Below, in pieces: positions 30,817-53,785 of a stretch of 64,000 bases of DNA. Origin of the DNA: Crambe crambe (lineage: Eukaryota; Porifera; Demospongiae; Poecilosclerida; Crambeidae); the NCBI GenBank assembly GCA_963924555.1, contig OZ004591.1:2170001-2234000 (forward strand), written 5' to 3'. The translations under genes were made by a program, and so were the position numbers. Every line of letters starts with the position of its first letter. Position 1 is the stretch's first letter. The notes beneath the pieces are model-generated. The model was not told the DNA's origin. It worked only from the letters and a program-made list of their open reading frames with translations, and did not search any database.

Positions 30817-33132
30817 ATGGCATCTCCTCTATATGAGCCTCCCCCTCGCTGGGGTCACTTTTCCTCCATCGTAGAAGGAAACCTCTTAATGTATGGAGGA
30901 AGAATTAAAGATTTCTACAACCAAGTAGAGAACACCATCAACTTATTTAATCCCTACGAGGAAAAATGGACCACACATAAGACTACAGGTACTGATCTAA
31001 TTAGAATATATGATGCTGCAAGTGCGGCACTAGGCAAAAATTTCTATCTTTTCGGAGGAACTAATGGTCAAGAGTATATAGGATATATGTACCATCTGGA
31101 TTCGACTTGGAACATCACAACAATGGAACATCACAATAATGCACCAATGAGAAAGCTTGACTCTAAGATGATAAGCCACAAAGAAAATCTAATCTGCTTT
31201 GGAGGTTACGGAATCCCCTCTGGACCGCACCAACTTCAATCTCAATTCGTCTTGAATAACAACTATGATGATGGAAGGGGGTGGACAAATGAGTTACACA
31301 GCTTTAACCTCAAAGAAGGTGAGGTAGAATATTAGGGGTGGTTAATGAGGTGTGTACACACCACTCTACTTCCTTCACTCTAAATTGACCCTATAAATGT
31401 GGGAGTGGTTAGCTATGTTGTACTGTGCAAAGCACAAAATAGCAGTCTGTCATTATTTTCTGGCAATTCAATGATGGTCAAGTTGACTGGACAGAAGCAA
31501 CTATGTGCATATAAGTGACCTAGTAAACTGATATCATAAAAATATTCAATCTGACATGTGAATGACCATAATGTGGATGTTATTTCAGCTTTGACATGTG
31601 TAGCACACAGTTCCTCCTATATTATACCATCCTCACCATCTTTGCTGAAACTGGATCTATAGGCTGCCTTTCTTGCAGGTTTATTTGTTGCAAGTCAGAA
31701 GTAAATTAGAGCTCAATCTGGTATTTTAGTGCTAACCACTTCCCTTACAAAGCAGTAGATGTGACAATAGTGATTTAACTAGCTACTGGTAACTGGCTAG
31801 CTAGTAGCTCTATTAATACTGAAGCTAGCTGTCATAGATAAGATGATGAAGGCACTGGCAGAGACTGACTGAAGCTTTTTAGTGGATGGATTGCATCCTC
31901 TCCAATAAATTAAAAAATGGGAGTGACTTTATTTGGACGTGGTACCTATCTCAGAGGTCAACCATTATTAATTTTACACCACCATTTTTTCTTAACTCAT
32001 TCAGGGAAGGTGGTTAATGTCCATGTCATCAATTTCCAGTTTCATAAATGTATTGTTGTGTGCATGTGCATGACCTATAATAATTATTGGACATCATCAC
32101 GTGCTTCAGTCCACCATTCTCAAAATTTATATTAGCTAGCTCATTCTGGATCCACCAGAGTGTCCGTTATCCAGAGTACAGAGGTCATCCACTCATGGAG
32201 ATCCACTTGAACTGTTGAAGGTGAAATCAATTATTGGTAACATACAATTTGTCTATTTGGAGGCATCCAGTCTTCAGAGGTCAAAGTAATCATTAAATTC
32301 ACACTTTCAAATATTTGGATCTAATACTAGTAAGGTATAATGGAAACTACTTTTGAAATGTACAGTAGCAATAGCTGAGTACTAATTTATTCAACTCACT
32401 TATAATTGGGTTGATGGATGGTAAGTGAGGTAATATCTATTCATCTCTTTACTCTCACCTTTTATCCTTCTACATTTTAGAACAAGAGCATAATTATTAA
32501 TAGAGCAGGTAATATAAAATGATGTAGTTATTATTGCCATTTAATTCCAGTACAAATTGTGGCAGATAATCAAGGACTAGCTACTTAGACCTACTTATGT
32601 GTAACACCCAACAAAGTTGTTCCTATCCTTATGCTTGAGATTAAGCAATGATGTTCCAGGCTCTGGGAAATGATGTCTGTGCTTTCTGTTGAAACACAAC
32701 TATAAAAGGTTTATGGTCCTACTGGACCTCAACTCTTATAAATGTCATTCCTGAAAGATTTGACTCTTAACTAACCTCTGAGGATGTCAATAATATTTAC
32801 TTCCAGATTTGTTTGTGACTCAGTGTTAAGTGTGACAACTATACAGTATTTGTGTGGGTGTCTATGGTATCAAAATGGACCCCTTTCCCATAAAAACTAT
32901 AATTACTATTAATCAAAACACAGACATAATAAAGATTCATAGAGTCCACTGAAGATGACTAGGGGCATGCAAATTATGCCAGCATAGTTTTGGGCATAAT
33001 GGGTTGAACTTTAATGCCAGCACAATGCTGGCATAATATGGGATTTTTACTTCCAGGGGTTGGCAGATATGGAGGTATTGATGTCGACTCTTGAGTTCCT
33101 TTGTATAAACTGCTGAATTAGAGTAGTAACAA

Positions 33133-33171
<39 letters not shown>

Positions 33172-36100
33172 ACTGTCTTCTGCTGTTTTTGATGATTAAA
33201 AGAGGCTACAATTATGGCTAGTGGCGGAGTTAGGGAGTTTCTTAGAAGTACCTATCCTAATTCACATCTTAAAATTTAGCACAGCCAGGGCCGGATCCAG
33301 GATTTTTAGATAGCTACGTAGGTGGACTACACACTAGGCCATGGGGAAGGCTGCAAGAAAGAGCAAGTTATTTGGAGGATCCATTTTGGCTTGCAGGCTG
33401 CCACTTTTTGAGCATTTAGCATTTTCGCTTCATAATGCACAAATTGGATCCAAGAAGTCCAAAATTTTCCCCAAATCTCCCTAGCACATATTTGTGTGCA
33501 GCATGAATATAGGCAAAGGTGTGAACCATCTCGAATATTGCTAGCTAGCTATTACACTCAAACTCTGAAGTGACACATACGAGGTCACTGAAGGAAATCA
33601 CAGTTAGCATTTGCAACAATGCAGTCACTAATGTGCAACATCATTTGTGACTTGCAGTCACTAATATGCAGTGACTAGACAGTAGACTTTACTGCTGCAG
33701 TTAGTCAATTATATAATGGGTCAAAAAAGTGGGGGGTGGGGGGCTCTAGCCCCTCTCGCCCCCACCCTCAGCCGCCACTGGTTAGTATGTCTAATGTGTG
33801 ACCTTGAAAATGAAAGCCAAAGTGTTCCAAAAGATATCTTTAAAGTGACACATGCAAGATCACAGGTGTAATTGTTAAGGAAGTCTCAGTTAGTATGCAC
33901 TGAGTTATCTAATGTGTGACCTTGAAAGTGCAAGCCAAAATGGATGCATCATGTATACATAGACCATTTCTTTCCTGACCATAGCCTTATATGATGATGG
34001 CTGTAGTATCTACATTGGTTAAGTTAGCTCATATATTATGTGTTCCTACTTTAGAGCAGAAATACAAGAAAAATAGATACGGCTAAGCAAATTGCAATAT
34101 TATCTACAGGCTTAGCTTGGGAACAAAAGAGAGGGGGGGGGCCCTCAACCCCACCCCTGGATCCAGCCCTGACAGCATTTGCAATGAAAATATAAAAATG
34201 GGAGTGGTAGTGGGACACCCACTAATAAGTACTCTTTTAATAGAAAATCTTGGATCCGCCACTGTATGCTACACTTTTAAATTTTCTTACCAATTTTTTA
34301 AAGCATAATAGGCATTTTTGTTGAGCATAATAGGGCAGGGGTTCTGGCATTGGAACATAGCATAATAGGGAAGAAAAAAAAGCATAATTTGCATGTCTCT
34401 AAAGATGACACCATGTTTGTATACAGAACTTTGAGACTATACATACTTTATACAGTCACATGTAGCTACACTGACATGCAACACATAATACACATCATTA
34501 TGTACAGACATTCCCATCACCTTCACAGGATTACCAATCTTTATCTTACTTTCCCCTAACTCCCTCAGGGACATGGTCCTCTCCCACTGTCACTGGAACA
34601 AGGCCCCCTCCCTGTGCTTACTTCACACTAACGAAGATTAATGCAAACACAGCTGTGATGTTTGGAGGTTACCTACCTGGTTATAAGACAACCAATGATG
34701 TGTACATCCTTGATCTGACAAAAATGGTGAGATGTAAAGTGTGGTATTAAAATATAGTGTCTGTTTCCATTGTACATTAATGAAGTAGATATTTCAGTAT
34801 ATGCTCTGACAGATGTGATGTACTGACTGGATGTTATCATTGTAGCTGGTCCATTATGTCCCCATAGGTAGAGTGCCACCACACTCAGATAAGATATTCA
34901 TCTATCAAGGTGAATATCCAAGAAATGGAAGGTCAAGTATGATCATATGACTTGAGGACCACCAGGACCAATTATGACCATTGTTTATTTAGTAGTAAAA
35001 AATGAAACCATGAAACTTTTAGGTCATTGATTTTATGATCATATTATATTGTGTTCAGCATGAAGTGAGTTCCATTAGGGAAATGTAATAATTATGACCA
35101 CTGATGAAAGAAGTTATTTAGAATTGTGAATGTAGCAATCATTTAGGTTGATAGTTCACAAACCATGTGTCTTCATTTCTCATTCATATAGTAGCTAGTA
35201 GGAAAGTATTAAATGGTCCAAATTTCATATAATTTGTACAGCAGCAGAAATGATAATTTATTGTTCGACTTATTAAGCATGTGTGCATAAGCCTAACAGC
35301 TAGCTGGCATGCTTGATTGGTAGCAGCTGCAGTATTGATTTTCAGCAAGCAAGCTTCATCTCTCCCTGACTGCAAGGTCTAATAAAGCTGTAACAGAAGT
35401 ACGGAATTCCCTGAAATGAACGAGCTACAGCAAGTTCATAACTGAACGACAACTTTTCTTTTCTTTTTAGCAACCATTGTTACATCCCATGGTTTCAATA
35501 GATCTGATCTCTCCATTGCTGTGGCAGCAATTAGTCTTTTTGAGTTGAGCATAAGAAATTTTAACCAACCCGCCATACAGTAAGTACCAACCTAATAATC
35601 TTTCTGTTAATTTGTAAATTGTGAAGAAGGGGCTAAGTGATAGTGTTTGTCCATGTGTACATGTGTTTATATCATTTGATTGCAATTAATTTTATAACAA
35701 ATTTATACTTCTTTTTTCCGTCATATCTCTTCCCTTGTTTTAACTACCTTAAAATCTAACCCCCGTTATTGAACTCTATAGGTTGCCTAGAAATTCATTT
35801 GACAGTATTAGTCATCTGTTCTTCTACTGAGTATTATAGCTCCTTGAATATCAATGAATACCTAATTACTGATGGAGACACACTTCACAGCTTGGTAATT
35901 GTAATTGTAACCTTTTGTAGCACTGGAGAAAACTGGCTCATCAGGAGGGAGAACCCTGTCCAGTGGCTAGAAGTGGCAATGCTTCTGTCTGTCTGGGTTA
36001 TGATGGAGATCACCCCCAGATTGTTGTGATTGGGGGGATTGATGATGACCTGAAGGTCCTAAGTGACATGTGGCTACTTGATGTAGTGTCTGGGATTTGG

Positions 36101-39100
36101 AGGGAGGTGAGTGATAAATTAGAATAAATAATAACAATGGTGGGCACTGAATCATTTAGAATTAAAATCTCCCTTGTTGTTCTTCACCTCCCATGTGGTG
36201 TTATTGTTACTGTTTGTACATGTTGAAGACACTCTCTAGTGGCATCATATCAGAGCACTCTACCATAGTAGCATATCATCAGTTTAATAAGTGTCATGCA
36301 GATATTGACAATGTGTGGGTTTCAGTTGAGATATAATGTTATGTCCTTACTGCATCACACTCAGTTGGTAGTGTTTCATTATAGGCAATTCTTTCACTTT
36401 TGCTGTGTGGAGTTGGAGTAAAAAGTGTGCATTGTTTTAGTTGTAGCTACAAGGAAGTGCTTTTCTACCAATTATAATGTTTATAGTTAATAGAACTTTC
36501 CTTTATCTTCATAATTGGAGTGAGCATAGCAGCACATTAAGAGTTACAGAGGGTAATTAAATTTAGTCTGGGTATGGAGTAATCTGTCAGGTGTTTGGAA
36601 AAATGGTTGGCATTCACTAGAATAGTTTTAAAATGACCACTGACCAAGTAGTTATTATAATTATTTTTATGATGTGTGAGTAATAACTTAGTAACATTTG
36701 TCACATAAATCATTGATAATCACTGTACACATTATCCACAACATGCTGTGTACCTCTCCATCTGCTAATAGGCAGGTGCTGCATGTATGAGTGTTTCTAA
36801 TTACCCTCTTCATGTGTGCACAGCAAGTGTTAATCTGGACTTAAAATTACTTGTTCATTTCCACTTGGACAGCTATACAAACTTCTATTTCCTCTAATAG
36901 CTCAAAACTGTCAAGTATTTCTTCAGCTCTGGAGTCCTAGTCTTCAGTTAGCTATCTAATTATTCCATTCCTAATTTGCACGTGAATGTGAAATTCATTG
37001 CCATGTCCATATACATGCTTGGGGTGTGAAATGTGAGGTTACCACATATTAGAGTAATGTGATCCATTTTGCTATTTTAAGTATGTATGTATGTTGCTAT
37101 GTACTGTGCTATCATCAAAGTTCTAATGCAGTGGTACCTGATGACCTTTTTATTAGCCAGTACTAACACCAATTATTGGCACCATGTAGTTTAGTATTAG
37201 AGGTCAAAACTTACAGTGCTGGAATTAACCATCTAGCACTTATTGGATTATTATTTGTAGTCTAAAGTACAAATTATCATGAAATGACCCCCTTACTCCC
37301 TCTAGTTATGTGTGATATTTGCATGACATTGTCTTGATGAGCATGTATTTCACAATGGCACAACATGGAGGTTTTTAAGTCTTGTGGTGTGGAGACTAGT
37401 GATGATGTGTGTATTGAAATGGAGGATGATGTCATGGAGGGTTGATTCGTGTCCATGTGCAGATCAAAGTTCCAAGTTTCCAGTCAAGATGGGACCACAC
37501 TGCTGATGTGTTCCATTTCAATGCAAGACTGGCGGATGTCATTCTATTTGGTGGGATTCCTGAGTGGCCGAAGAATTACAAGTCTGTTGCTGACCTTCCA
37601 ATGATAGCCCAGACCACTGTACTACGATTTGGTGAGTGTGATTTAACTGATGCTAGTCATACTATACTTCATTCCTCCATAATATAAGTACAGTAGAAAG
37701 TCACTGGAGGTCTTTATTTCCATGTATTGTGAATACTTACATTTTAAGTGTGTATATTTTAATGTCTCTATTACCCACTGACTTAACATCTCTGTACAGT
37801 GGGACCTCTAAATAAGCAGACATGTCTGGAAGAGCATAATAGTCTCTTTATTTGGAGACATAGTGACATTACTGTAAATCTTCTATTTAGTGTGTTACTC
37901 TACTATAGTGTCACAATCACATTTAGACCCATTCTTATAATCATGGCACTAAATGAAGTTTTAGTATGACATTGCACTAAGCACCAGTCTATAATGCAGT
38001 CAATGTAGTCTAATAATAAACTCTCATTCTGTTGATGTGCCTGTCATGATTTTTTCTGGCATGTTAATTAGAAGATTTATGGTATTGGATGTTCTATAGT
38101 AACTGTTGTTGTTCACTGCACTTGTTAGGAAGTTGTGTTCGTGGTTTGTGCATGTCTTGTATTGTGTGTGGTTATAAGCTATTCACAAGATTAGAGACAG
38201 GCAAGTCTGATGGTTTGCTTTAGAATGATTATTTCCATATCCATCATGCTTTCTAAACACCCTATTCTTCTGGAGGTGAAACATACTTCACTTTCATTGG
38301 ACCACCACACATCCAAACTCATTTAAACCAACTCCTTTAAATTTGGGATAATTGATTTGACATAAATCTACTTAGAAATTGAGTTGGTTTAATCCAGTTT
38401 TCAATATTTAGCAAACTTCTTAACTTCTTAATTCCTTTTCAAATCATTCATTATTTTTCTAACTCCTTTATCTGATGATAAATTTCTTCATGTAATAAGG
38501 TTTCAATATGCAAGGGTCAGCACCCTCGTAATCTTAGAGGTCGTATTTCTTGAAAAGAATTTCATGATTTTCCCCTTGCAATTTGCATATGCTGTGTATA
38601 GCTACTTAATTACTATTTCATCAAGTGACCTCCACTTAACTTACCAACCACTCATTGATAATTAATATTTCAAATAACTACCATCCATCATACTTTTTCA
38701 TTTCTTCTCCACCACCTTGTGATATGAAGAATATCACTATAACTTAATACTATCAACAGAAAACAATGTTCATCAATTTAATGGATATCACTTCTATTTC
38801 TCGTCTAGTTTCTAGTTACTAGATAGTTTCCATGCAGTAACTAGTTACCACATGGTGGAAAATTTTCATTGAGTAAAACTTTCATGGATTCAGTTATTTT
38901 GAAAAAAATAATACACCAACATAATTTTTATGGTTCACATTGAGAAACAACAACAGTATTTCCCAACCAATTAGCTAAGATTGATTCCTGTCAAAAGCTG
39001 GTCTAAACCTCCACCATAAATCTCACTATCATTTAATGACATACAAAGACACTCTTCAAACCTGAGGTCAACCATAACATAATTATTACTAATGCTAATT

Positions 39101-39204
39101 AGAATGTGTTGATAATGAGTGGAGTCTGATTGATGTGTGCAAGTTTCCTGACCTTGGGAGTCCAGAGAGAGTGAAAATGAAAGAAGAACTGAAAAAAAAT
39201 TCCA
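30817..39204 (+). CDS. Kelch-repeat protein (N-terminal part of a Kelch-GTPase-Death gene, or separate gene)
   Basis: Five exons splice in phase: 30,817-31,318, 34,569-34,726, 35,921-36,106, 37,463-37,631 and 39,103-39,204. The translation starts MASPLYEPPPRWGHFSSIVE and gives a series of Kelch blades, each with a hydrophobic-GG turn and a Y/W-x-(L/F)-D strand: LLMYGGR ... INLFNPYEEKW; FYLFGGTNG; LICFGGYG ... LHSFNLKEGTW; VMFGGYLPGYKTTNDVYILD; IVVIGGIDDDLKVLSDMWLLD; and VILFGGIPEW. This fits a beta-propeller that binds a partner. The last exon ends ERVKMKEELKKNS at a phase-1 donor (39,205). The GTPase exon offers a phase-1 acceptor at 41,362 in the correct frame, so a single transcript is possible. 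Intron 1 carries a nested transposon. I chose the ATG at 30,817; an upstream in-frame ATG is absent. Confidence 0.85.
31319..32959. other. Kelch intron 1, left part
   Basis: Unusually long intron for this gene set. Up to 32,959 it appears to be unique AT-rich DNA without recognised genes or repeats; small inverted motifs around TAGCTAGC (31,780-31,830) are seen. Confidence 0.5.
33133..33171. repeat. (AAC)n microsatellite
   Basis: About 39 bp of ACA triplets inside the intronic hAT element. Confidence 0.9.
33286..34171. mobile_element. Nested TIR element (CAGGGCCGGATCCAGG ends)
   Basis: The left end CAGGGCCGGATCCAGG and, inverted at 34,171, CAGGGCTGGATCCAGG are flanked on both sides by ACAGC (33,281-33,285 and 34,172-34,176). 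A third inverted pair, AGTGGCGGAG (33,220) and its reverse near 33,780 (GCCGCCACT), overlaps it, so one more element was inserted or recombined here. CAGGG/CAGTGGCGG ends are hAT-like. No coding capacity. Confidence 0.65.
37797..37880. mobile_element. Pogo/Tigger-type MITE, one end recognised
   Basis: TA then CAGTGGGACCTCTAAATAAG at 37,795, the usual CAGTGGAACCTC start of pogo-type elements, in the intron before the last Kelch exon. An internal match GTCTCTTTATTTGGAGACA is palindromic. The matching right end was not found. Confidence 0.45.
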
Positions 39205-39336
39205 GTAAGTGTGCATATGTAATTATAGAGTTAGTATCATATCAACCCTCAGTGCATGCACGAAGGTCACAGTACTCAGTTGTGTATGTATTAATTAGTG
39301 TATCTGTTACATCCACCATGAAGCCGACCTCAACTA

Positions 39337-39891
39337 CTGTATAGTGGGTATATTTCAAGGGGTAAAAGTTTGCGATTAAACCTTTTTGTCTTATTTCACG
39401 GGGAAATCATTTGCAGTTTTGATTTTGAAAAAACAACCAAAAAACCTGACCAGCAGCCATGTGCACACGTGCATGCACACTGAGCTAGATCTATATCTAG
39501 CTAGCTGAAGCTTCGATGGCATGCAAATCTAGGCCATCTTTCGTTTGAGACTACGTTCTAGACGGGTTAAGTTTAAGACGATATCTGGAGTGCAGTAGTT
39601 AGCAAAGTGTTATAATTATTGTGCAGTCATCCTTTTGCCATGGCATACCAATGATACATGTTCTGCCGCCTCAAAGCCAGATCATGTGGCTCTATTTTTC
39701 TTCAGTGAGTCTATCCATTGTAGAGTCACAGACACATGAACTAGATGTAACGTGATTAGTCTGAGAGTCTGGGCCGAGTGAGACTATCTAGTGATTTGCC
39801 AAAGTGATTTGCGTGGTTAAATATTCGCAAACAGAAGAGAAATTGTGACATCTACGAAATTTTCACCTCTTGAAATATACCCGCTATACGA
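39337..39891. mobile_element. 555-bp MITE, TIR CTGTATAGTGGG, TA target duplication
   Basis: Starts CTGTATAGTGGGTATATTTC and ends with the inverse TCGTATAGCGGGTATATTTC, each bordered by TA (39,335-39,336 and 39,892-39,893). The ends share GTATAGCGGG with the 471-bp element at 23,530 and both carry an inner TTCGC/GCGAA pair, so they belong to one family. It lies between the Kelch exons and the GTPase exon. Confidence 0.85.
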
Positions 39892-40734
39892 TATATCCAA
39901 GTGATACTCTCCAGTGTATTAATAGTCTTTATTCCTAGAAAGATGGCAACATTTGTAGCTGAGCTTCCTTACATATTCCTCAGCCAGCAATAATTTAAAT
40001 TCAGCTTCAATATTGTCTAGACGATACTTTCCAGCATTTCAATAGCTTGCCTTACTCAGAAAACTCAGAAAGAAGACAAGATTGGTAGTAAATCATGAAA
40101 ATGTAGACTGTGTACTTAATACCTTCAACTGATCAACGATCTCCTGCTCAATATCTGAAATGTAATGCAAATATCTACTTCAACACACACAGTACAGATA
40201 ACTCAACAATTTATAGAGTAATTATGGTGAGTCTGAGCAATTCCACCATACATATATAATAATATAGAAACATTCTATGATCATTCAGTATACGAGTTTA
40301 ATTTGGCGGTGTATTAAATTTAATGGTTTGGCTGTCTGTCTTGGAACCACCAATAATAATGTCTGCCATTCAGAAACTAGCAGCATGCATTAGTGGCAAG
40401 TGCATGATAACGCTCACCGCCATGCCACCACACTTGGTAAATACCAAATAAAAGAGTTTTATTTGTCATTTGTATCAAAAGTAACACATATACCATAGTT
40501 TTTATTTCCATACATGCATGTGTCTACTATACTTACCTTGTGCTGTACAGCAAAGTTTTCTTATGCGACGACCACAAGTATAACATGCACTCAGAGCATC
40601 ATTAATACGTCACAAATAAACATCCACACAGAGCACAGACACAAGTCTCCATTTTTGCCTGCACAGTTATATGCACAGCACCCATGCTGACCTTATAACT
40701 TAGGTGGAACCATTACCTTCAATGACAAACAATG

Positions 40735-40990
40735 TAGTACTTTAGAACTTTTCATTGAATGTAGCTATAATGGATGGGTGATGGAACCCTTCGTTCATGT
40801 CTGATCCACTTGAAGGAAGGCATCTAGCATGGCTTCTTTCCATCAGAATTTGCCAACTGCCAAGCTTATGGAGTTTCAGGATCAGGGAAGATGTCTCTCT
40901 ATGACCTCCCTGTACCTGAACTACACATCAGTACTGTATTTATCAAGCAAGCACAGAGAGCAGTGCACAGTTTATCAATTATATACACAA
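40735..40990 (+). pseudogene. Broken duplicate of the GTPase P-loop exon
   Basis: Matches 41,285-41,550, including the TGGGTGATGGAACCCTTC start context, the GCATGGCTTC(A/T)TTCCATCAG stretch and the GATCAGGGAAGA P-loop codons. A deletion of about 25 bp before the P-loop and another of about 10 bp after it, plus other changes, destroy the frame. It is a tandem partial duplicate, older than the segmental duplication flanks appear to be. It sits in the putative intron between the Kelch and GTPase parts. Confidence 0.85.
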
Positions 40991-41315
40991 CATCCAAACC
41001 TTATAACTTAGATGGAACCATCACCTTCAATAACAAACAACTCAAATGACAGTTAATTTCAGCTCTCAACAATCACAAACATGCATGCACACATACAAAC
41101 AAGCAATCTACCAAACATCTAACCAGATCATCAGGCTCGCACCACAATGCCCTGCATTTCTCTAGTAGAAAAAAATTTGTATACAAAGAGTTGCTGAGAT
41201 TCCCGATGACAGCAAGATTGTCTGTAGCTGCTACGAATTGCACTTTGCTGTATGTAGTAGTCAATGTGTGCACTGAGAGCTAGTACTTCAGAGCTTTTAA
41301 TAGTAGCAGTAATGG

Positions 41316-44300
41316 ATGGGTGATGGAACCCTTCACTTTATGTCTGATCCATTGAATTTAGTGATAGAGCAACACTTGAAGGAAGGCATCCAGTATGGCT
41401 TCATTCCATCAGAAGTTGCCAACTGCCTAGCTTATGGAGTTCCGGGATCAGGGAAGACGTCTCTCCATTATTCTCTCTATGACCTTCGTGCACCTGAACT
41501 TCGTATCAGTACTGCATGCATCGAGCAAGCACAGAGAGCAGTGCTGGTCACAAAAAGCAGTGAAGATTCTTCATCTGAAATAGTTATATGCAAACCAGTG
41601 GAAGAGCAAGATCTGAAAGAAATGCTTGCGAAAGAGATGACAGAAGAAGGAATAACTGAGGAAAAGAAAGAAGTAATTTCACAAATCGAGAAGACGCTGA
41701 AGGAAAATCCTCCAGTGAAAGATCGCTCAACTCAACCTGTGTCACCTTCCTCTCAAGAGCTGACTCCAGTGGAAGATCATCAGCCTGTTTCAATTCCAGG
41801 GCCTTCCCCCACACCTGATGAAGAAGCTACTTCGCACTTAGTCATATCACCTCAAGTGAAATTGCAAGGAATGGATGAAATCCTGTATTTGATGCTCCAC
41901 CCCACCCCAGCCAACCTACCACGACTGAGAAACCGCTTGGTGCAATTCATCGACAGTGGTGGACAGCCCAAGTTATTGGAGATGTTACCTGCATATCTCC
42001 GAAATCTCTCTGGTGTGATGCTTGTGCATCGTCTCTTGGAGAGTCTCAGCACCATGCCAAAGGCAGAATACTGCGATAAAGATGGTAAGCTGTTCGAGTT
42101 GGGTCACTTCAACCTGACCAATCTGGAAATGTTGGTGAAGTGTGCACAGCTCTCTCGTTACCACCAGTCTCATCTTGCACTTCCTCACGTGGAATACGAT
42201 GATTCTCCTCCTGACATAATAGTGGTGGGTACCTTCAAAGACCAGGAAGGCAAATGCAAGCAAACCAGGGAGGAGAAAAATGCTGAATTGGAGGTGGCAT
42301 TTGAGCAGTTTGGCAAGAGCATCATCAGGCGATCAAATGGGGAGATCATCTTTGGTGTGGATGCCACCTCTCGCAGTGATCCCGTAATCTCAGAGCTAAG
42401 AGCTGCCTTGAAGCATGTGAAATGCCTGCACTATAAGTGTCCAATCCTGTGGTACCTCCTTGAAGTGGAGCTGAGGAAGCTGGGGAAGAAAGTTATTCCC
42501 AAAGAGTATGTCATGTCAATAGCCAAAGAGTTGCATATCGTAATCACAGAATCGATAGAAGCTGCATTGCTGTTTTGGCATGAAATTAATCTCATCATGT
42601 ATTTTCCAAGTATTCTTCCTGAAGTTGTCATATTCCAGCCGGATGCCATGATTGGAATGATCAGTCAACTCTACGAGCAGCACATCAAGATCAGCGACAC
42701 TGCTGAATGCGATATTTCCTCCGAAGAAGATTTACGTTTTCGAGACCAAGCTCTCTTTAGTGATGATTATGCCTACCACATCAAAAATGAGACCATCCTG
42801 TCTGTGGACGAGCTCCTTCTTATCCTTCAGGACAGGAAGACCGTTGCAAAATTACCTTCCAGTGATGACGGCTCCTCCCTGTATTTCATGCCCAGCCTTT
42901 TAGAAGAGTTGACCGAAGAAGAGTTTGCTGCTTCTCGTTCTCAACTTGCTTCTCAACTTCCAGTTGCTTCATCTCTGCTGGTCTCTTTTCCCACTCCTGA
43001 GGTTCCTTCAGGTCTCTTTTGCACTTTCATATCTGATATAGTCTCTTCCAGTGAGTGCAAGATCCCTGACCTTGATAGTTCCACCAAGTTGTATAGGAAC
43101 TTCATCTCCATCACTCTCAGCATCAGCCCAGGTTCTTTCGGTACTCTCACTCTGTACAACACAGGAAAGGTTTTCTCCATCACTCCTTACTCCCTCTCCT
43201 CTTCTTCTTTCTTGCCAAAAGTGAAAAAGCTTGTTGCTAAAGCTCTTGATGCTTCTTGTAGGGTGTTATCTTACAGAAAGCTTCACCAGTTCTCCTTCCA
43301 GTGTGAGTGTGGCCAATCTTCACCACCTCATGTTGCTCACCTTTCACTTGACGAGAAAGTGACCATTTGCTCCTTGGACTCTGATAAAGATGGATGTAGT
43401 CTTACAAAGAAGCAGATTCTTTGGACAGGTAAGTTCAGTAGTAACTCCTTTAAATTCAATAATGTATCTCATTATTTATTTCAGATCAGTGCAGTGATGT
43501 TGCATGTCAGACTGTTTGTAGCATGGAGACTTCAGTGAATGGTATGTGATTTTTACATGATTTATACATTTTAATTTCTCCCCATTTAATATATACTTGC
43601 CACAAAATATTCAATGTATGACATGATATCCACCAGATAGCCAAGAATAATCATTTGTTATGACATAGCAGCTAGTGAGTATAGCCATGGATAAGCTTTT
43701 ACTATTAATATTGAATTCACAACAGATCATCAGCGTGGGATGAATGTAGTGGGATCTACCTCTTTCATCTACAGAGGAGAAGCTGTCAGCTTTACTTGGA
43801 ATAACCATGGGGTCAATCTGCACCTCCCAGAGGATGCATTTACATCTGACATCACTGAATGTCCTATTCATCTTGAGGCAGCAATATCTGGCCAGTTCCA
43901 GTTTCCTGATGGTGCTGAGGTGGTGAGTGGTGTGTACCACATCCACAGCCCTGAGCAGTTCACCAAAATGATGACCATCAAAGTCCAACACTTCTCCTCT
44001 TCTAGTTCCCAGAAAGAAGTTGATGACCTTTGCTTTGTCTCAAGTAACAAAGACCAGCTTCCCTACCTTTTCTCCTTTTGTGAAGAAGGCATATTCTCCA
44101 TTGGTAGTCAGTATGGAGCCATTGAAACAAAAAGCTTTGGCAAGTTTGCAGTTGTGAGAAGAAAGAAGAAAGATCCTTTCTTTCAGAGCAGCACTACTTC
44201 TCATAACTTGTATCGAGCACATGTTTTGTATACGAAGAAAGATGACAGCAATTGGGTCATAATATATTCCATCATTCAACAGGCAGAACTATATTCCAAG

Positions 44301-46846
44301 GTAACCACCACAAATATGAGCACAAGGAATTTTTATCATGACTTACTGTCATCTTCAGATACTGTTTGAGAAGTTTCCACGAGAGAGCCTATATGATGCA
44401 GTTGATCAGCAAGTCACTTTCACACAAAGTGAGATCACACTCAATATTCCAGTGACTGGTGTGGTTGTTAATAAGTGGACCATTAAACCTTTGACTGCAC
44501 CAGTGGTAAGTTTGTCTTCCATGCATTTTAGATCAAAGTTACAATTATCCTCTTTTTTAGATCACAAAAAATGATGTTGATGCATTCAATACTGGCAAGC
44601 AGTTATCATTTTGTGAGCTTAATGTGTATAAAAGCCCTGAAGATGTTGGGTCTCCTTTGAAGTATCATATTGATCTCCTTGGAGCCAAGAAACCTCATGA
44701 CTTCTTTGTTTTAAACTTTTCACCATCTGGTAAGCAATAATTTTAATCATAATCCTTTGAGTTCCTTAGCTTAAGATTCAGAGTTGAAATCTTGCTTTGT
44801 GTTTCAGATGCTTCAGCTGGTACAATGACTCAGGATACTTTCTCTTTGAAGACTTCTGTGAATGGTGTGTATTCTCTATCACAATATCAATCAATTATAA
44901 CGTTTCCTGTTTTATAACAGATTACCTTCGAGGAATGGATGTGATTGGGTCAACCTCCTTCATTTACAGAGGAGAAGCTTTCAGCTTCACCTGGAAGGAC
45001 CATGGCTTCAAGCTACACTTACCTGAGAATGCCTTACCTCCCGATATTTCTGAGTGCTTTATTAAAGTCAGGGCAGCTCTTTCTGGCCAGTTCCAGTTTC
45101 CCGATGGTGCTAAGTTGGTGAGTGGAATCTACTCCATTCACAGCTCTCACTCCTTCACTCGGTCAGTGACTGTGGAAATCGAGCACTTCAGCACCACTGA
45201 CACTCCAGAAGAAGCTGAAGAGCTAACTTTTGTCGTCAGCACTGGAGACCAACTGCCCTCTCAATTCCGTCCACTTAAGGATGGGATTTTCCCTGTTCAC
45301 AGTCGATATGGAGCCATTGAAATGAAACATTTCTGCAAGTATGGAGCTATAAGAACGAGAAAAGAGAAGAGGTCTGCTGATCGCAAGTCTCGCAATTTGT
45401 ATAAAGGTTGCTTACTGTATGATGCAACGAATCCTAGCAACAGTTGGGAAGTGTTATTCTCCATCATACCTAATTCAGAGTTACACTATGAAGTAAGACA
45501 TGCAATTGATACTTGACTAAGATAGCATTTGATGTTTTAATTACAGAGTCTCTTGAGGAGGTATCCCAAGGACACAGTGGTTGAACAACCTGTCATATTC
45601 AAGGAAGAGGAAATTCAACTGAGTATTCCCGAAATTGGTCTTAACTTAGATGGAGATTGGATAATTCAGCCATTAGTGGCACCTTTTGTAAGTGTTCGAT
45701 TTTTATAGGACATATTGATAGTAGCTAACTTTACAGCTTGGACACTTGAACTCAGTTTATTCTACTCCACAATTATTCAACAGATTCTCAAGTCTCATGT
45801 TGATGCATACAGAGTCCACAAGCAGTTCTCAGTCTGTCAGTTGAGAGTTCTCTACAGAGGTGGGGCATCCACTGGATCTGACCTCAGGCACAAGATTGAC
45901 CTTCTTGGTGCTGAAAGACCATTCACATACTTTGTACTTGTTATTTCTCCATTTGGTGGTAAGCAAGCAATACTTGATTCTCTGCATGACTGTTTTGAGT
46001 GTGCATATTATGTTACACTTATAATCTCTTTGCAGTGTCTCCTTCAGTGAAATCCCAACCATCACCTAGTGATGATCATGGGATTCCTCCTGCAACATCA
46101 TCTACTCATGTGAGTTCCTTCAACACCTCACGATGACATCTTACAGTTTATACATGTTAAACAGATGAAGGCCAGCACTAGTCCACAAGTTCCATCTCCT
46201 GAAAAGACAAGTGAGTGTTATGTTCCATGCAGTTATATCACTGAGTAATTAACTAGTTGATCTTGCTCACTGATATTTTCTTTTAACCCAGATCAGGAAG
46301 TCATACTTGCAACAGTCGATGATACCAACCTTGGTAAGTCATAGAGCTAGCTACATTGAGGAGTGTATTTGTCACCTAACCAGTTACATACAACAATTCT
46401 AAGTTGCTATTAGATATATATATATATATATATATTTTTCAATTGTAAGTTACTATTAACTAGCTAGCTACTGTGTTACTCTTCCAAGGTATTGATGATA
46501 TTGGAGATATCTTTGATGAAGTGGAAAAGTTGTCTCCAAAATGGAAATTGCTAACAACTAAGCTGCGTCTGAGAAATCATGTAGTTGAGAATATCCAAGA
46601 AAATTGCTCTGATGTCATGAGTCGCCTGGATGAAGCCCTGAAAGAGTGGCTGAAGTTGAACTACAATCACCAAAAATATGGAAGACCAAGCTGGCGGAGG
46701 TTAGCAGAGGCTGTACGGAGTCTTGATTATGGACTCTTTGAGGAGATAGCCAGGAATCATGCAGGTGAGATGGTACAGTTTCTCTGTGAGAATAGATTGT
46801 TTATCATTTCCTTTGATGTGCAGCTCAAGATATGTCACAGAGTTGA
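41316..46846 (+). CDS. Roc/COR-like GTPase with two ZU5-UPA modules and a Death domain
   Basis: A 2.1-kb exon (41,316-43,428; alternatively from the acceptor at 41,362) encodes a GTPase. It has P-loop GVPGSGKTS (residues about 40-48), a charged low-complexity insert (about 90-180), switch II FIDSGGQPKLLEMLP (about 210), the G4-like VVGTFKDQ (about 305) and a COR-like region with CPILWYLLEVELRKLGKKVI and PEVVIFQPDAM. Twelve exons follow, all in phase: 43,485-43,541; 43,726-44,300; 44,359-44,505; 44,561-44,729; 44,808-44,864; 44,921-45,492; 45,547-45,687; 45,784-45,958; 46,036-46,109; 46,165-46,210; 46,292-46,333; 46,489-46,764; with the end exon 46,824-46,846 (stop TGA). They encode ZU5-UPA twice and a Death domain. 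Introns are 45-180 nt. The protein is probably cytoplasmic, with a nucleotide switch feeding a death-fold signalling complex; that role is inferred from PIDD1, UNC5 and DAPK/ROCO proteins. TAA lies in frame just before the chosen ATG. Confidence 0.9.
43726..44729 (+). other. ZU5-UPA module 1 (three exons)
   Basis: The ZU5 exon (43,726-44,300) reads GMNVVGSTSFIYRGEAVSFT, then VNLHLPEDAF and SGQFQFPDGAEVVSGVYHI, the family pattern in which a hydrophobic strand precedes a conserved LxLPxxA turn. The next two exons (44,359-44,505 and 44,561-44,729) carry ITLNIPVTG ... WTIKPL and FCELNVYK ... HIDLLGAKKPHDFFVLNFSP, which I read as UPA-like. Confidence 0.75.
44921..45958 (+). other. ZU5-UPA module 2 (duplicate of module 1)
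   Basis: Exon for exon the same as module 1 with the same phases: ZU5 (44,921-45,492: GMDVIGSTSFIYRGEAFSFT, SGQFQFPDGAKLVSG), then 45,547-45,687 (IQLSIPEIG ... WIIQPL) and 45,784-45,958 (VCQLRVLY ... KIDLLGAERPFTYFVLVISP). The small linker exon before each (43,485-43,541 and 44,808-44,864, both ending in TSVN) is also duplicated. Proteins differ at perhaps 40% of sites, so the duplication is old. Confidence 0.85.
46414..46434. repeat. (TA)n in the intron before the Death exon
   Basis: About 21 bp of TA repeat. Confidence 0.9.
46489..46764 (+). other. Death domain exon
   Basis: A single exon encodes a six-helix death fold: DIFDEVEKLSPKWKLLTTKL, LRNHVVENIQENC, MSRLDEALKEWLKLN, GRPSWRRLAEAVRSL and LFEEIARNH. 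The W in helix 1, the (D/A)LxxWL segment in helix 4 and SWRxLAEAV in helix 5 are hallmarks. Only eight residues (AAQDMSQS with the split codon) follow on the next exon, so the Death domain is C-terminal as in PIDD1 and UNC5. Confidence 0.85.
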
Positions 46847-47691
46847 TATACACTCACTGAATTGAGGCCTGCTAAAACTAAATGAACAAACACTTTACAC
46901 TCACCATGCATAATACCAACACACTTTGTATCATCATGATGAAAGCACATTCCATAATGCATTTATTTATGATACTTTATAATATGCATTTATTATTCTT
47001 TTCTATTTTTTTTATAATAGCTGTATTTTCACCAACTTCTTTATGAAAATGTCTACTGGCTTGACTTATCTGTGTGATTGCTTGAAACTGCAAAATTGTC
47101 TTTACCATATCTGATCATAATTGCTATATAGTCTATGCATGTATATTTCAGAAGACTAAGCATAGCTAGGACTATTAATGTGTTGTGTTTGAACTGTGTG
47201 TGAGAACAGTACAATTATCGTCTCCCTACGTAACCCCAGCCTTTGGGAAGATTGTTGCAGCTAGCTATGGTTAAGTATAAACTATTTAGCAGGCCAGCTT
47301 TTAACTTGGTAAAGATCGTAAAATGGATATTGCAATCTTACTCACATACTGGTGTGGTTTTCATTATAACGTCCTTTACCTATTAGAAGCATGCGGTGAA
47401 GACCTGTTAGCAAAGAAATGCAGAAAAGATGACATCTTTATCAGTCCAGTGAAGATGGTAAGTTTGCCGACAGTCCGCGTGTCTCTTTGTGGATTAGATC
47501 ATAGATATAGATCGACTAGGCTGGCTCTGCAGGAGGCTGAAGATCTGTAGTTAGTAAGGTGGTGTTGTGCTAGTTCCTGAGGTCGATGAATAGGGGAAAG
47601 TTTGGACATTCTTTCTTTCCCTGTTTTGTATTTTTGTGATCATTTCTAAGTTTCAATCATTAAAATGATATTTCAATATCTAAATTAGTTT
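46847..47691. other. Intergenic DNA after the Death-domain gene
   Basis: AT-rich 3' flank; no gene recognised. The block from 47,557 on begins the relic unit (compare 893-1,010), so the non-repeated island ends at about 47,550. An open stretch at 47,323-47,550 shares its GTGGTTTTCATTATAACG start context with 27,050 but has no recognisable protein. Confidence 0.5.
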
Positions 47692-47800: not shown

Positions 47801-48675
47801 GTTAGTAAGAAAAAGTTATGTAGGATGAGAGAAGAGAAGGAAGAAGGGTATGAGAGTAGGAAAGATGCGACTGTGTAACTATGGAGAGGGTGAAGAGGGA
47901 GGAGGGTGGGATGTGTGTGTGCAGATGAGAGTGAGGGAAAGAGGAGTGTGTGGGATGCATGATGTGAGGTGTGCGGAAAGAAAAGAATTTTGTGACCAAA
48001 AAATGTATAGCTGTGGATAGGCTTGATTCTATTATGCTGGCATAAATGTGGCATAAGAGGTACTTCCTAGCATCAGGCTTAATGAGGTGAATATTAGGAC
48101 ATGACTGGCGAGGTCAAGGAAGCAAGCATGTAATGTATGCCTCCATTAAACACTTACTTCAGGTGTATAAAGAGAAAATCCAAATCTACATAATTATGAA
48201 CAGTAAAATTTAAAATTTCCCACCCCACCTTAGAAAGTGTTCTAAATGGAGCCCTGAATGGGATTCCCTCTTTTGTTCTTTTTCAACCACTTTTAGTCTG
48301 GTGTATGTATAGGGTGATTTGTGGAAGTGCCTGGGGCTGGCTGCGCCAGACTAAGTGGCTCATGAGACTAGGATTAGAAATAGAGTAACAATGGTGGCGT
48401 ATCTATTCTCCCAGTCATGTGACTGATCATGTAACTCATGCCCACTGCTGGACTGGGCTTTATTTGGAAGTCTGATTTTACCTACCTATTTTATGTATCT
48501 TGCTGGTACAGTGTACCTATCTATGGTGTAACTTTGGTTATCCCCACACCTCCTTTATCCAGAACCTATATGTGACGATAGTTCCAGGTCTTTTCAATTA
48601 GCCATATCTTAAACATGCCGATGAAATGACTTGAAATTTCTGTCATGTGTTCGATGTATTATTTCACCCTCAAGG

Positions 48676-48846
48676 TGACTAGTTACGAGTCCTGGAGAGC
48701 TGAAGTGGGTCTTTCTCTGAGGGATTGGTCTCAGGAAGATGATCGTGTCAATATTCCAGGGTCACATTACAGTCCCCATGGTGATATTTATATAGAAGAG
48801 GACACTCCATCAGAGATGTGCAAGGAAGGAGTGGACATAGTAAATG
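48676..48846 (+). pseudogene. SUCLA2-type exon relic, open fusion (LRDWSQEDD + SPHGDIYIE)
   Basis: One open frame reads SYESWRAEVGLSLRDWSQED and continues through NIPGSHYSPHGDIYIEED to KEGVDIVNG, with a GTGAGT donor at 48,847. The first half matches the DLQDWTQEDER segment and the second half an earlier exon of the ligase; the residual ATTCCAG between them is the old acceptor. The in-frame joining is accidental or selected; it is intact here and frameshifted in copy A. Confidence 0.7.
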
Positions 48847-48918
48847 GTGAGTGATTTATCATCGTAGGCACACAGTGAACATGTCAATGGATAGACACTG
48901 AAGGTCGATTCATACCGT

Positions 48919-49670
48919 ACAGTGTTTCCTCTAGGGTCAAATTCAATCAGGGTGACAAAGCCGATCGGCTGCATAGCAGCCGCAGGGGGAGGGTGCAGGA
49001 GGGGGCACAGCGCGGAAGCAAAAATAGAAATGAATCTTTTGTTGTCTCAATTAGCTCATTTGAACAAGTTAGAAAATGTAACAATTATAACTGTAGGCCT
49101 AAAAAAAGCTAGTGGTTGTTGCTCTAAGATTCATTTGGCCTACTTGAATCATTAGGAACCAGAAAGCTGATGCTCACGAACCTTGTCTCTGCGAAATAAT
49201 TTGCAGGGGATCTCAATCCAAGACATCTTCTTGGTCACTTGATTATACTTACGACAGAGACTACAAAACATTGATGGACCATTTTTCTCATCATTTTCAT
49301 AGAGTAACCATGGAAATTCATTTAGCCAGGCTGGATCAAATCCACTTTCCCTGTGCTTACCCTTTTTTGTCTGCAGTGGTGGACCAGAATCTGGGTCAGA
49401 ACTGATATCTGAACTAGTAGTAGGCCTACTAGTGCTAGAAAAGAACTCTTATTTTCTTTCTCTTGGCCATTGATAGTTATGGGCCACATGGACAGTTTGC
49501 TTAGTGTTAAGTGATTGTGGTATGTAACTTTATGTATGTGGTTAAGTGGCATCTACTGGCCTACTGCTGTGCTAATTAGCCAGACTACAAACCACAGTGA
49601 CTAATTCCTGGAACTACTATTGCCAAACAGGGCAGGCCACCCTGATTGAGCTATACTAGCGGAAACACTG
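48919..49670. mobile_element. 752-bp hAT-type MITE unique to copy B
   Basis: The left end CAGTGTTTCCTCTAG and, inverted at the right, CAGTGTTTCCGCTAG are followed inside by CAATCAGGGTG in both. CAGTGTTTCC is a common hAT terminus. Copy A lacks it at the equivalent place (about 625). No clean 8-bp target duplication is visible. A GC-rich block (48,965-49,015) follows the left end. No transposase. Confidence 0.75.
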
Positions 49671-50048
49671 CCCTATACAGTATGGCTGGATATTTCCAAG
49701 GATTAAAAGTTTTATTATTTGGTTTGATTTCTTATTCATCATAAAATCATCAGTTATGGATGAGCACTTTCCTTTAATTATGGCCATACTTCTTGTAGTG
49801 TTCCGGCCATTGTTGGTTTGGTATCTCCTACCTACTCTGTTTATCTACTGATCGAGCAATGAGTATGCCCACTGCTGGACTGGGCTTTATTTGGAAGTCT
49901 GATTTTATGTAAGTATGTGCTTCTGGAGTCATCTTTCGTAAGGTTGTGTTGTGTTAGTTCCTGATGTTACTCTCTTTTTCCTGTTTGTGTTTTTGTGATC
50001 ACAACATCCGTTTCAGTCATGAAGTGGCAAAAAATGATTCTAAATTAG

Positions 50049-50164
50049 TGTGCAGAGCAAATGCCAAGTCTGTATGAAATATGAAATGATACTGAAGAAG
50101 GATGCCATGATGATGGAGATTAATCCCATGGTAGAGACACTGGACACCTCATGGAAGAAAAGAG
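50049..50164 (+). pseudogene. SUCLA2-type exon relic (EINPMVE)
   Basis: Counterpart of 1,008-1,122 with the same splice borders and KKDAMMMEINPMVETLD core. Confidence 0.7.
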
Positions 50165-51313
50165 GTACATACGAGGAAATTGCAGTAAACATTGCTAAAC
50201 TCGTAAGGAAAGAGTTATGAAGGATGAGAGGGTGAGAGAGGGGAAGAAAGAAGGGTATGGGAGTGGGAAAGAGGTGACTGTGTAACTATGGAGAGGGTGA
50301 AGAGGGAAGAGGGTTGGAATAGAAGTGGGATGTGGATATGCAGATGAGATAGGATAAGAGAGGAGAAAAGATCCCCTATGGCTATCTCTAAAAGTGACAA
50401 TGCATAGACACTTACTCCTATCCCCTGCAGGAAATTTTTACTTGGAACGTACATAATAATGAATCCTCCACCCCCTTATTGTCTAGAGCCCCGATTTTTC
50501 CCATCCTTAGAAAGTGTTCTAAATGGAGCCCTGAATGGGATTCCGCACTTTTAGTCTGGTGTATGTATCTTGCTTGTATGTGTGGATCAGTTCCATGTAT
50601 ATGATGTGTTCAGCATTGGACAAATGCTCTTATTAGAATATCTGAACCCCATTTCTCTCTTGCTTGACCACTGTGTTCCATGGAGCCTGTTCTTTCACAT
50701 ACGTAGTCTTGTGTGAAATCCCATGGTAACATATCTTCTTATGAATCCAGTTTTATCATACAGGTCTACCAGTACCCTATTGAGAAGCTTTCCAGACATT
50801 ATCGTGTTTTCGTTCATCTCCCTCTTTCGGTCAATGGCACATTCTTCAGCTTTGTGGTCATGAATCTGTGCCTGGAAGGCCAGCTGTAAGTTAGCTGTTT
50901 TTGCATCATTCATAGTGTCTCTGTAGACATCATAATTGAGATGACTACATTTCAGCCCAAGCAAATACCAAAAAGATCTGAACATGCAATTAACCTCAGT
51001 AGTTCATGATAAGGAGAAAGAAATAGACTTGCTCAGTAAGCAAGAGAAAACTTTGACTGCTAAGCAGCAGAATGTTGTTAGGTACAAGGTGGCTGTTGGG
51101 TTACACTGATGTGGTATCACCCTGTTGTGAAACCAGTTTCTCAGTGCAAGCTCTGCCACTGGAGTACTGTAGTCAAGTGTGCAATGGTGCCAGTGGAAAG
51201 ACTGTTATCAGGGAGTGCGTAATCTTTTTAAGAATGTGTGTGATAGGGTTATACTCTCAACACTCTATTCTAGTCTAGTCTCCTGAAATGCAATCTCCTC
51301 TGAACTCCTGTAG

Positions 51314-51470
51314 GGTGACTGTGTGGACCTGGTGGTGTACTACATACGTGCACTTGATGTTGTCATTATCCCAGGGTCACGTGCCAGTCCCCATGGTGAT
51401 ATTTTTATAGAAAAGAATGTTAGAGACGCTCCCTCAGAGATCTACAAGGAAGGAGTGGACATAGTAAATG
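51314..51470 (+). pseudogene. SUCLA2-type exon relic, open (VVYYIRAL...SPHGDIFIE)
   Basis: Counterpart of 2,277-2,433. All 53 codons are open between a CTGTAG acceptor and GTGAGTG donor. Differences from copy A include Y to C, H to R (twice) and I to V; none interrupts the frame. Confidence 0.75.
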
Positions 51471-52290
51471 GTGAGTGATTTTGTGGAGATGGTTGGCACA
51501 CAGTGAGCATGTCAATGGACAGACACTGAAGGTCCATTCATACTGTACGCAGTAGGGCTGGATATCTAATATCCAAGGATTGAAACTTGCTTATTCATGT
51601 GCATAGATTATGGAATGAGCTGTACTTCCTATAAATGACTGTAGTGCTCCTTGTGTAGACAATCACTAATATATTTGGTATCCTTACTGAGCAATGAGCA
51701 TGCCCACTGCTGGACTGGGCTTTATTTGGAAGTCTGATTTAACCTATATCTTGCTGCTCTGTGCTTTCTGAAATCGTATCAGTGTGCTGGGTCTATATTG
51801 AAAGTGATACTTGTATGGTAAGGTGTGGCAGTTCATGCAAGTGTATATGCCACTGTACACTGACTCAGTTTGGTGGTCATGTTCATGCTTGCTCACTGGA
51901 CATTCACATCCACACAAACAAATCAAGGCATAGTCACTGGATTGTCAGGTTTATTCCAAGGAATTTACGTTTCAATGATACATCATAAGTCAATGCTAAC
52001 ACTTATGAACCAGAAAATGTGCCCCAGGGGTGAGGGAGATATTAGGGGAGATATTTGTACAAGTAGTAAATGGATATTCTACAGATTCAGTCCCTGATCA
52101 ATTTTAATCAGCTTAATAAATTAGTCACATCTCCAAATATGTTGATAAAATAATTATTACTTCAAACTCCTTTCACATGTTGTATGTATAATGGTTGGAC
52201 TATCTCCTCACCAATTTCCAGTCTCAAGGCTACTAGTAATCATGAGTTAAAGTGGTCATATTTGATTCCTGTCATATTTATTGTCTTTCA

Positions 52291-52366
52291 GGTTGTAGAA
52301 CAATCCCGAGTCTGTATGAAATGGAGAAGTATGCCATGATGATGGAGATTAATCCCATGAAAAGAG
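52291..52366 (+). pseudogene. SUCLA2-type exon relic (EINPM), truncated
   Basis: Counterpart of 3,210; MMEINPMKRG followed by a GTACGC donor. Confidence 0.55.
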
Positions 52367-52474
52367 GTACGCATGTAGCTAACATGACATCACATGTACT
52401 TGGACAACTGATGGGAACAAGATAAGAGGTGTGGCAGGGGGTGGGGATGATGTCATGTGATAGGTACATGTATA

Positions 52475-52618
52475 CAGTGGAATCCAGTTACCCTTGGGAC
52501 TGAACAAAATGGTTGCTCTACAGAGGTGGTCCTTTTACACTGTATGTCTGTCTTTGAGACTATTCATTTGGACATCAAATACTAACTCATGAGTGACCTG
52601 CTAAGTTGGGTTCCACTG
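52475..52618. mobile_element. Pogo/Tigger-type MITE, copy B
   Basis: Orthologue of the element at 3,381 with TA on both sides and the same CAGTGGAATCCAG / GGGTTCCACTG ends. Confidence 0.75.
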
Positions 52619-52904
52619 TACTGAGGGTTTTTACTACATGAATTACAACTTTTGCAAGCTTAATCATTGGCACATTTAATCACATGCAAAATGCTCCCCA
52701 CACTCCTCCCCCTTCATTGTTCAGAGTCCTGATTTTGCCCCCTCCTTAGAAACATCTCTCCATACGTACATCCCTGATTATGTTTGTCTTCATGATTGCA
52801 GTGGTGTTCTTTTCTCCGATGGACTGGTCTCATGAAGATTCACACTGGCATCAGGTACATCATAGGCTGTCTTTGTGAGCATTTCTTTATCGTACATATA
52901 AAAT

Positions 52905-52965
52905 TACATACATACATACACACATACATACATACATACATACATACATACATACATACATACAC
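52905..52965. repeat. (CATA)n microsatellite
   Basis: About 60 bp, against about 158 bp in copy A (3,821-3,978); the CATG run is missing. Confidence 0.9.
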
Positions 52966-53619: not shown

Positions 53620-53785
53620 CAGTGGAACCTGACTTAGTGTCCACACAGAGTCAACAAGTCATCTACGTTCACCTCATACCGGTCAAGATGAAAAGTCCAA
53701 CCTAATATAAATCTGGTGACTTTGTAAAGGGACACCTCTGTATAGCAACCACTTTATTGAGTCCCATTATAGCCAGGTTCTGCTC
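53620..53785. mobile_element. Pogo/Tigger-type MITE
   Basis: Starts CAGTGGAACCTGACTTAG after TA (53,618-53,619) and ends CCAGGTTCTGCTC before TA. Its right end recurs in copy A at 4,385-4,415, just before the retroelement fragment, so the element was present before the copies diverged. Confidence 0.65.

Follow-up and report, generated by a model that had tools for sequence, protein, structure and literature searches.

A tandem gene family of the sponge Crambe crambe predicted to join a Kelch propeller to Roc-COR, ZU5-like and Death regions

Gene model and exons

We analysed a window of 64,000 nucleotides from the sponge Crambe crambe (bases 2170001-2234000 of contig OZ004591.1, C14 below), and searched the 143 Mb, 119-contig genome to which it belongs. 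On its forward strand the window carries a gene predicted to encode, in this order, a Kelch propeller, a Roc-COR GTPase region, two ZU5-like units and a Death domain. This gene belongs to a first array of 15 tandem copies, with more diverged clusters elsewhere. Exons were found by reading the DNA in three frames and were then spliced. The resulting model (30817-46865, +) has 17 exons with consistent phases and one open frame of 1857 amino acids, and all of its introns are bounded by GT and AG (16/16). Its parts are as follows:

30817..31318 (+), exon 1: start methionine and Kelch blades 1-3 (gene model, Pfam, motifs)
34569..34726 (+), exon 2: Kelch blade 4 (gene model, Pfam, motifs)
35921..36106 (+), exon 3: Kelch blade 5 (gene model, Pfam, motifs)
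37463..37631 (+), exon 4: Kelch blade 6 (gene model, Pfam, motifs)
39103..39204 (+), exon 5: last part of the propeller, with linker; phase-1 donor, kept in 4/4 relatives
40761..40966 (+), tandem duplicate of the exon 6 5' end, now decayed and carrying an in-frame TAG
41362..43428 (+), exon 6: Roc-like GTPase and COR; G1 at 41436, DSGGQ at 41952, G4-like motif at 42225
43485..43541 (+), exon 7: 19-residue spacer preceding ZU5 unit 1; resembles 44808-44864
43726..44300 (+), exon 8: ZU5-like unit 1, its cleavage position (44133) reading SFG
44359..44729 (+), exons 9-10 (44359-44505, 44561-44729): UPA position, without Pfam recognition
44808..44864 (+), exon 11: 19-residue spacer preceding ZU5 unit 2
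44921..45492 (+), exon 12: ZU5-like unit 2, its cleavage position (45328) reading HFC
45547..45958 (+), exons 13-14 (45547-45687, 45784-45958): UPA position, without Pfam recognition
46036..46210 (+), exons 15-16 (46036-46109, 46165-46210): Ser/Pro-rich linker
46489..46865 (+), exon 17: Death domain, then the stop codon (gene model, Pfam)

The MASPLYEP start of exon 1 is common to the nine other array copies that were read (9/9), and is replaced by MAYEP in a diverged copy, L055. In the decayed copy of exon 6, the repeats D4, D1 and D2 show 94, 91 and 86% identity, respectively. No membrane span is predicted in the protein, as its highest 19-residue hydropathy mean is 1.32.

Domain content of the predicted protein

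A first-pass annotation, made from the letters of the window alone, had described a beta-propeller, a GTPase with a DSGGQ motif and a COR-like region, two ZU5-UPA units and a C-terminal Death domain, and had proposed domain searches for each part. In a Pfam scan of five pieces of the spliced protein, Kelch matched strongly and Death scored above its cut-off, COR-A and ZU5 unit 2 fell below theirs, and ZU5 unit 1 and UPA were unmatched. The proposed architecture was therefore confirmed in its Kelch, Roc-motif and Death parts and not in its UPA part, with ZU5 and COR-A remaining under threshold. The propeller matched PF24681 at 2.5e-41 and contains six GG blade motifs, indicating a six-blade Kelch propeller whose closing strand, by sequence, comes from exon 5. 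The Death domain matched at 4e-5 (24.1 bits, cut-off 22.6).

In the GTPase, Roc motifs are present at 41436 (GVPGSGKTS), 41952 (DSGGQ) and 42225 (VGTFKD), and the G1, DSGGQ and G4-like motifs of the window align with those of Roc-COR proteins from the same genome at 20-21% identity. COR directly follows the Roc GTPase motifs, as is typical of a Roco protein, the COR-A match (3.6e-4, 20.9 bits) lying under the cut-off of 35.3. The Roc model itself matches 3/6 members of the Roc-COR alignment, the window row not being among them. A profile of this alignment (A2) matched PDB entries 4wnr (3.2e-13) and 3dpu (6.3e-8) as well as LRRK2 (about 1e-6), but because A2 includes stronger Roco relatives, the window row gains no independent proof from these matches.

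The two proposed ZU5-UPA units were recovered, by way of relatives, as two ZU5-like units without a detectable UPA. Unit 2 matched ZU5 at 0.0085 (16.8 bits, cut-off 21), and unit 1 alone gave zero Pfam matches. The units are 50% identical to each other, and both align with ZU5 exons from elsewhere in the genome; 7/9 members of this ZU5 alignment match ZU5 at E <= 1 (best 5.5e-8). The assignment of both units to ZU5, weak for the units alone, is thus suggested by these genome relatives. By position, a region of a length fitting UPA follows ZU5, but the Pfam and PDB searches gave no support to UPA as a named domain, the sole PDB match of a ZU5-UPA profile (A3) being at chance level (E 1.8). We use "UPA position" as a label because UPA was unrecognised in 3/3 regions.

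In the five pieces scanned there was no Pfam match to LRR, NACHT, protein kinase, ankyrin repeats, SH3, TIR or BTB, and the propeller starts at the modelled start methionine. PDB sequence searches with single pieces produced no useful match.

The join between exons 5 and 6

The weak join of the model is the long intron 39205-41361, which is spliced from 39204 to 41362 in phase 1. When four relatives (L040-L043) were read across this join, the donor and the phase were kept and the spliced peptide was in frame in 4/4, with L042 weighing less because its locus has GTPase frame breaks (L045). The acceptor GAATTTAG and its phase were identical in the 10/10 copies aligned; in L057 and L058 the second base of exon 6 differs. 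As the phase-1 join is kept in relatives and 15/15 copies are co-linear, the earlier proposal that the Kelch and Roco-ZU5-Death parts form a single protein is well supported, and on this comparison of copies we consider it very probable.

The same locus might instead hold two neighbouring genes duplicated as a block, a Kelch gene with exon 5 as its last exon and a Roco-ZU5-Death gene beginning at its own ATG at 41316. Block duplication by itself would hold two genes linked, and an in-frame ATG does lie 48 bp upstream of the acceptor in 9/10 copies, at the head of a stretch that is alignable between clusters whereas the sequence preceding it is not. However, exon 5 lacks its own stop, ends at the donor kept in all four relatives and provides the closing strand of the propeller, and the acceptor and phase are conserved in all ten copies. 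Moreover, the 48-bp stretch of the window differs from the commonest second-cluster form (L041, L059, L060) by 5 nonsynonymous and 0 synonymous changes, unlike the exon, whose ratio of nonsynonymous to synonymous divergence (dN/dS) is 0.18; these numbers are small, and other copies share some of the window's letters, with one synonymous difference from the window in the first array (L040, L043). Taken together, these features make two separate genes improbable.

A tandem gene family

A genome search with Kelch gave at least 167 matches (150 scored of 549 candidates). On C14, the 71 listed matches merged into 61 loci, of which 15 lie at 2.0-2.65 Mb, 24 at 4.1-4.46 Mb, 3 at 4.6-4.7 Mb, 8 at 5.3-5.75 Mb and 11 at 5.9-6.4 Mb. 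Used as a DNA query, the GTPase exon was found at 15 places in the first array, including the window (93-100% identity), at 10 places at 5.3-6.4 Mb (82-83% identity), and as a partial copy on contig C6. At 15/15 loci of the first array the GTPase exon lies 8.4-12.8 kb downstream of Kelch and is followed by ZU5 unit 2; ZU5 unit 1 was scored as present in 10/15 copies, and a Death match was found in 14/15. Short matches to the last exon of unit 1 occur further downstream in 3/5 of the copies tallied without that unit (2034429, 2166247 and 2500423; 40 of 94 candidates scored in this DNA search), and the numbers of ZU5 units per copy are therefore not firm. In the second set, a listed Kelch match lies upstream of 8/10 GTPase places and a Death match was found at 6/10. 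The copy at 5.378 Mb was tallied without unit 2, but both units and Death are present in its DNA (L044), so that an absence in these tallies is not proof. In the genome-wide counts of the other parts (COR-A, 150 scored of 339 candidates; Death, 150 scored of 965; ZU5, 64 matches from 108), the COR, ZU5 and Death of the window itself lie outside the matches listed.

Spacer sequence at 62-21463 is repeated at 48356-59711, a distance of 38-49 kb that is near the period of the gene array, and two spacer repeat families in the window are 91 and 67% identical. Because the former spacers are mostly 95-100% identical while the exons differ more, the sequences suggest that segments may have been exchanged. 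In L045 (C14:6347401-6353000), DQCSDVASQTI is repeated threefold in the spacer frame, and the Death-like end is strongly different from that of the window (20% identity).

Rates of change in the parts of the gene

We compared Kelch exon 1 of the window with that of 10 relatives, of which four were truncated to 115-119 residues, and found all of these sequences to be without stops (11/11). Pooled over 10 array sequences, the ratio of nonsynonymous to synonymous differences per site (pN/pS) in this exon was 0.78. The dN/dS of the other parts was 0.18-0.20 in 3/3 GTPase pairs, 0.23-0.29 in 4/4 ZU5 pairs and 0.42 in one Death pair. For a matched comparison we used the copy at 2.15 Mb (L049 for Kelch, L046 for GTPase), the only other gene with both parts read. 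Synonymous divergence between this copy and the window is similar in the two parts (0.181 in Kelch and 0.168 in GTPase), whereas nonsynonymous and synonymous differences stand at 43:16 in Kelch and at 52:70 in GTPase (Fisher one-sided P = 1.0e-4). The Kelch part of this gene thus changes fast and its GTPase part slowly. Within Kelch exon 1, six putative ligand loops, picked post hoc, had a pN/pS of 1.68 compared with 0.49 elsewhere, the changes clustering in four of the six; a difference in pN at least as large was seen in 5/166 circular shifts.

The ZU5 cleavage position

Cysteine is able to serve as a nucleophile in inteins, and glycine has no side chain for such a role. In the passages concerned, PIDD is described as self-cleaving at HF/S behind each of its ZU5 domains, and SF/S is given as the corresponding site of NLRP1 and CARD8 (PMC3210808; cf. 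PMC8081665). By alignment, unit 1 of the window protein has SFG, and unit 2 HFC, at the PIDD-type cleavage position, where HFS, QFS, RFS or HFC stands in relatives elsewhere. The pattern HFC-x-(Y/H)-G was present at 14/15 unit-2 places of the first array, the 2.28 Mb copy being without it, and had 79 matches genome-wide versus 13 for the reversed control. SFGKFA was found at 8/10 unit-1 places of the first array and at 17 places overall (reversed control, 0). A third pattern, HFSKYG, is uninformative because the reversed control gave more matches (2) than the search itself (1). HFS at 43989 and 45184 was considered as the cleavage site and rejected, as the alignment puts this triplet at the ZU5 "HCA" core and the cleavage position at SFG/HFC. 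We tentatively predict that unit 2 could cut itself at HF/C, with Cys replacing Ser, and that unit 1, with SFG, would be unable to do so, although this outcome is far from assured. If the sensor reading is right, the SFG/HFC pair would offer a direct test case for ZU5 self-cleavage on cysteine. On contig C6, at 2983332-3095484, seven matches to HFC-x-(Y/H)-G fall within about 110 kb, perhaps a further ZU5 gene cluster.

Interpretation and alternatives

Starting from the anatomy of the gene, the domain order repeated through a tandem array, the conserved splice join and the fast Kelch and slow GTPase change, we favour, with a probability of roughly 0.57, the reading that this protein would act as a cytosolic receptor-like sensor, built from a variable Kelch propeller, a Roc-COR switch, a ZU5 clamp and a Death output. 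The six-blade propeller at the N-terminus would be the variable recognition part, and its ligand, whether a microbial, self or damage molecule, might alter the nucleotide state or the dimerisation of Roc, the Roc-COR GTPase being the putative switch. One or two ZU5-like modules may serve as an inhibitory clamp. The change in Roc could then free the C-terminal Death domain, the predicted output, to recruit Death-domain adaptors, with an immune or cell-death signal as the presumed outcome. The first-pass annotation had suggested a candidate innate-immune or cell-death scaffold; this is supported in part, and the large tandem family with its fast-changing Kelch part, which could not be seen from the window alone, gives the sensor reading a stronger argument.

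Several results weigh against this sensor reading. A PIDD-like clamp would rely on UPA, which had a Pfam match in 0/3 regions and, genome-wide, one sub-threshold match (0.197) that falls outside the Kelch-Roco-ZU5-Death family. Two structure predictions were of low confidence (pLDDT 32.8 and 35.9). The pooled Kelch ratio of 0.78 can reflect relaxed constraint, and against the diverged copy L055 the dN/dS of Kelch exon 1 was 0.18-0.41. The loops were picked when the alignment had already been seen, on the basis of Keap1 contacts, and the two blade-1 loops were without effect (0.48 and 0.39). Some copies also look damaged: L045 has frame breaks in its GTPase, the Kelch matches at 2.44 and 5.45 Mb have one stop each, and the 2.31 Mb copy, without a Death match, is counted among them.

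If constraint on Kelch were simply relaxed, as is frequent in tandem duplicates and as a pooled ratio below 1 would allow, the gene might encode a Roco protein of an ordinary scaffold or housekeeping type that takes no part in recognition, whether of invaders or of self. We consider this rather unlikely, because it is Kelch that is accelerated, the pairs read giving 0.18-0.29 for GTPase and ZU5, because the changes gather in four of the six loops chosen post hoc, and because the family has 15 to 25 copies whose Kelch exons are open wherever compared. Decay of the whole array into pseudogenes of little function would account for the broken L045, the two Kelch matches with stops and the decayed partial exon copy in the window, but it is hardly credible given those open Kelch exons and the GTPase exons of the window, L044 and L046, which are likewise open at a dN/dS of 0.18-0.20. 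A family that is tandem and fast-changing, and whose nearly identical spacers and more different exons suggest segment exchange, would also suit allorecognition, the propeller reading self-derived molecules rather than those of pathogens to tell self from non-self; the lack of a predicted membrane span speaks against this, and we hold it to be very unlikely. The sensor reading could be carried further, to a tandem arsenal of at least 15, and probably at least 25, Kelch-Roco-ZU5-Death receptors with a ligand face diversified by selection, a constant GTPase and a cysteine-based (HF/C) PIDD-like clamp, an animal counterpart of the brown algal LRR-ROCO proteins and of NLRs. This fuller version is possible, but we regard it as doubtful.

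Relation to known systems

The first-pass annotation knew of no described protein in which Kelch heads such a chain. A literature text search, to which most subscription papers and the figures were out of reach, found no description of the Kelch-Roco-ZU5-Death architecture as a whole, and a figure of one paper counts as many as forty animal ROCO architectures (PMC11378527). The Kelch-Roco pairing alone is not new, however, because WD40 and Kelch propellers appear among the domains that a review gives as flanking Roc-COR in members of the Roco group (PMC6320773). That passage places LRR and kinase around Roc-COR and names no ZU5 or Death, whereas the window gene has both ZU5-like units and Death. 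We regard the window gene as a variant of the Roco receptor class.

Among the systems compared, the brown algal LRR-ROCO candidate immune receptors resemble the window gene in their ROC core, fast-changing N-terminal repeats and expanded family, and, in the part of that paper concerned, four LRR sites on their concave side are reported to be positively selected (PMC11378527); the window gene differs in having a Kelch propeller, ZU5-like units and Death, and in varying between tandem genes. PIDD1, as described in the passage available (PMC3210808), shares a recognition-type N-terminal domain, two ZU5, a C-terminal Death domain (found also in UNC5) and an alignable cleavage position, but has LRR, HF/S and UPA where the window protein has Kelch and Roc-COR, SFG/HFC and an undetected UPA. 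DAPK1 (PMC6337361) and sea anemone NG3 (PMC5094078) also combine Roc-COR with a Death domain; from the passages on them, both carry a kinase and NG3 also SH3 and TIR, and neither these nor the ankyrin repeats that accompany the N-terminal kinase of DAPK1 were matched by Pfam in the five window pieces. The protein likewise lacks Pfam matches to the NACHT ATPase and LRR of an NLR, and, as its propeller starts at the modelled start methionine and BTB was unmatched, the BTB and BACK of a KLHL (BTB-Kelch) protein are not found ahead of the propeller. Bacterial AP-GTPase-COR conflict systems, in the passage seen (PMC8195603), share GTPase-COR, N-terminal repeats that evolve fast and a C-terminal part that varies, with LRR and other effectors in place of Kelch and an animal Death domain.

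Early animals are reported to have NACHT-Zu5 (PMC12909245) and sea anemones kinase-Roc-COR-Death-TIR (PMC5094078), at least in the passages cited, and parts of this kind are therefore shuffled between proteins; Ank-ZU5-Roc-COR (L029) and Kelch with ZU5 (L024) in the same genome fit this picture. If the sensor reading is correct, an animal would use Roco GTPases as the switch in a diversified family of intracellular receptors, a role already put forward in bacteria and brown algae, a beta-propeller would replace LRRs as the reader, and the animal sensor classes would widen beyond the NLR, TLR and TRADD-N families.

Other observations

On the reverse strand of the window, a 585-codon open frame (17158-18915) has a weak C17orf113 zinc-finger match (1.3e-6, just under cut-off) and is reminiscent of hAT-derived ZNF862-like genes. 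The genome contains a very large Roco expansion, the COR-A matches (150 scored of 339 candidates) lying mostly in open frames of >600 codons; LRR-Roc-COR-kinase open frames were found in 3/5 loci read (L032, L037, L039). At L029 (C12:4915501-4925000), ankyrin, ZU5 and Roc-COR open frames stand in a row, and at C3:7.48-7.83 Mb there are 24 ZU5 matches, several of them adjoining ankyrin frames (L005-L008). Finally, L024 (C20:1391501-1401000) has Kelch frames (7.2e-19), then a piece that fits no family clearly (PrkA 4.6e-4, under cut-off) and then a ZU5 frame (4.9e-7), and is perhaps a second kind of Kelch-ZU5 gene.

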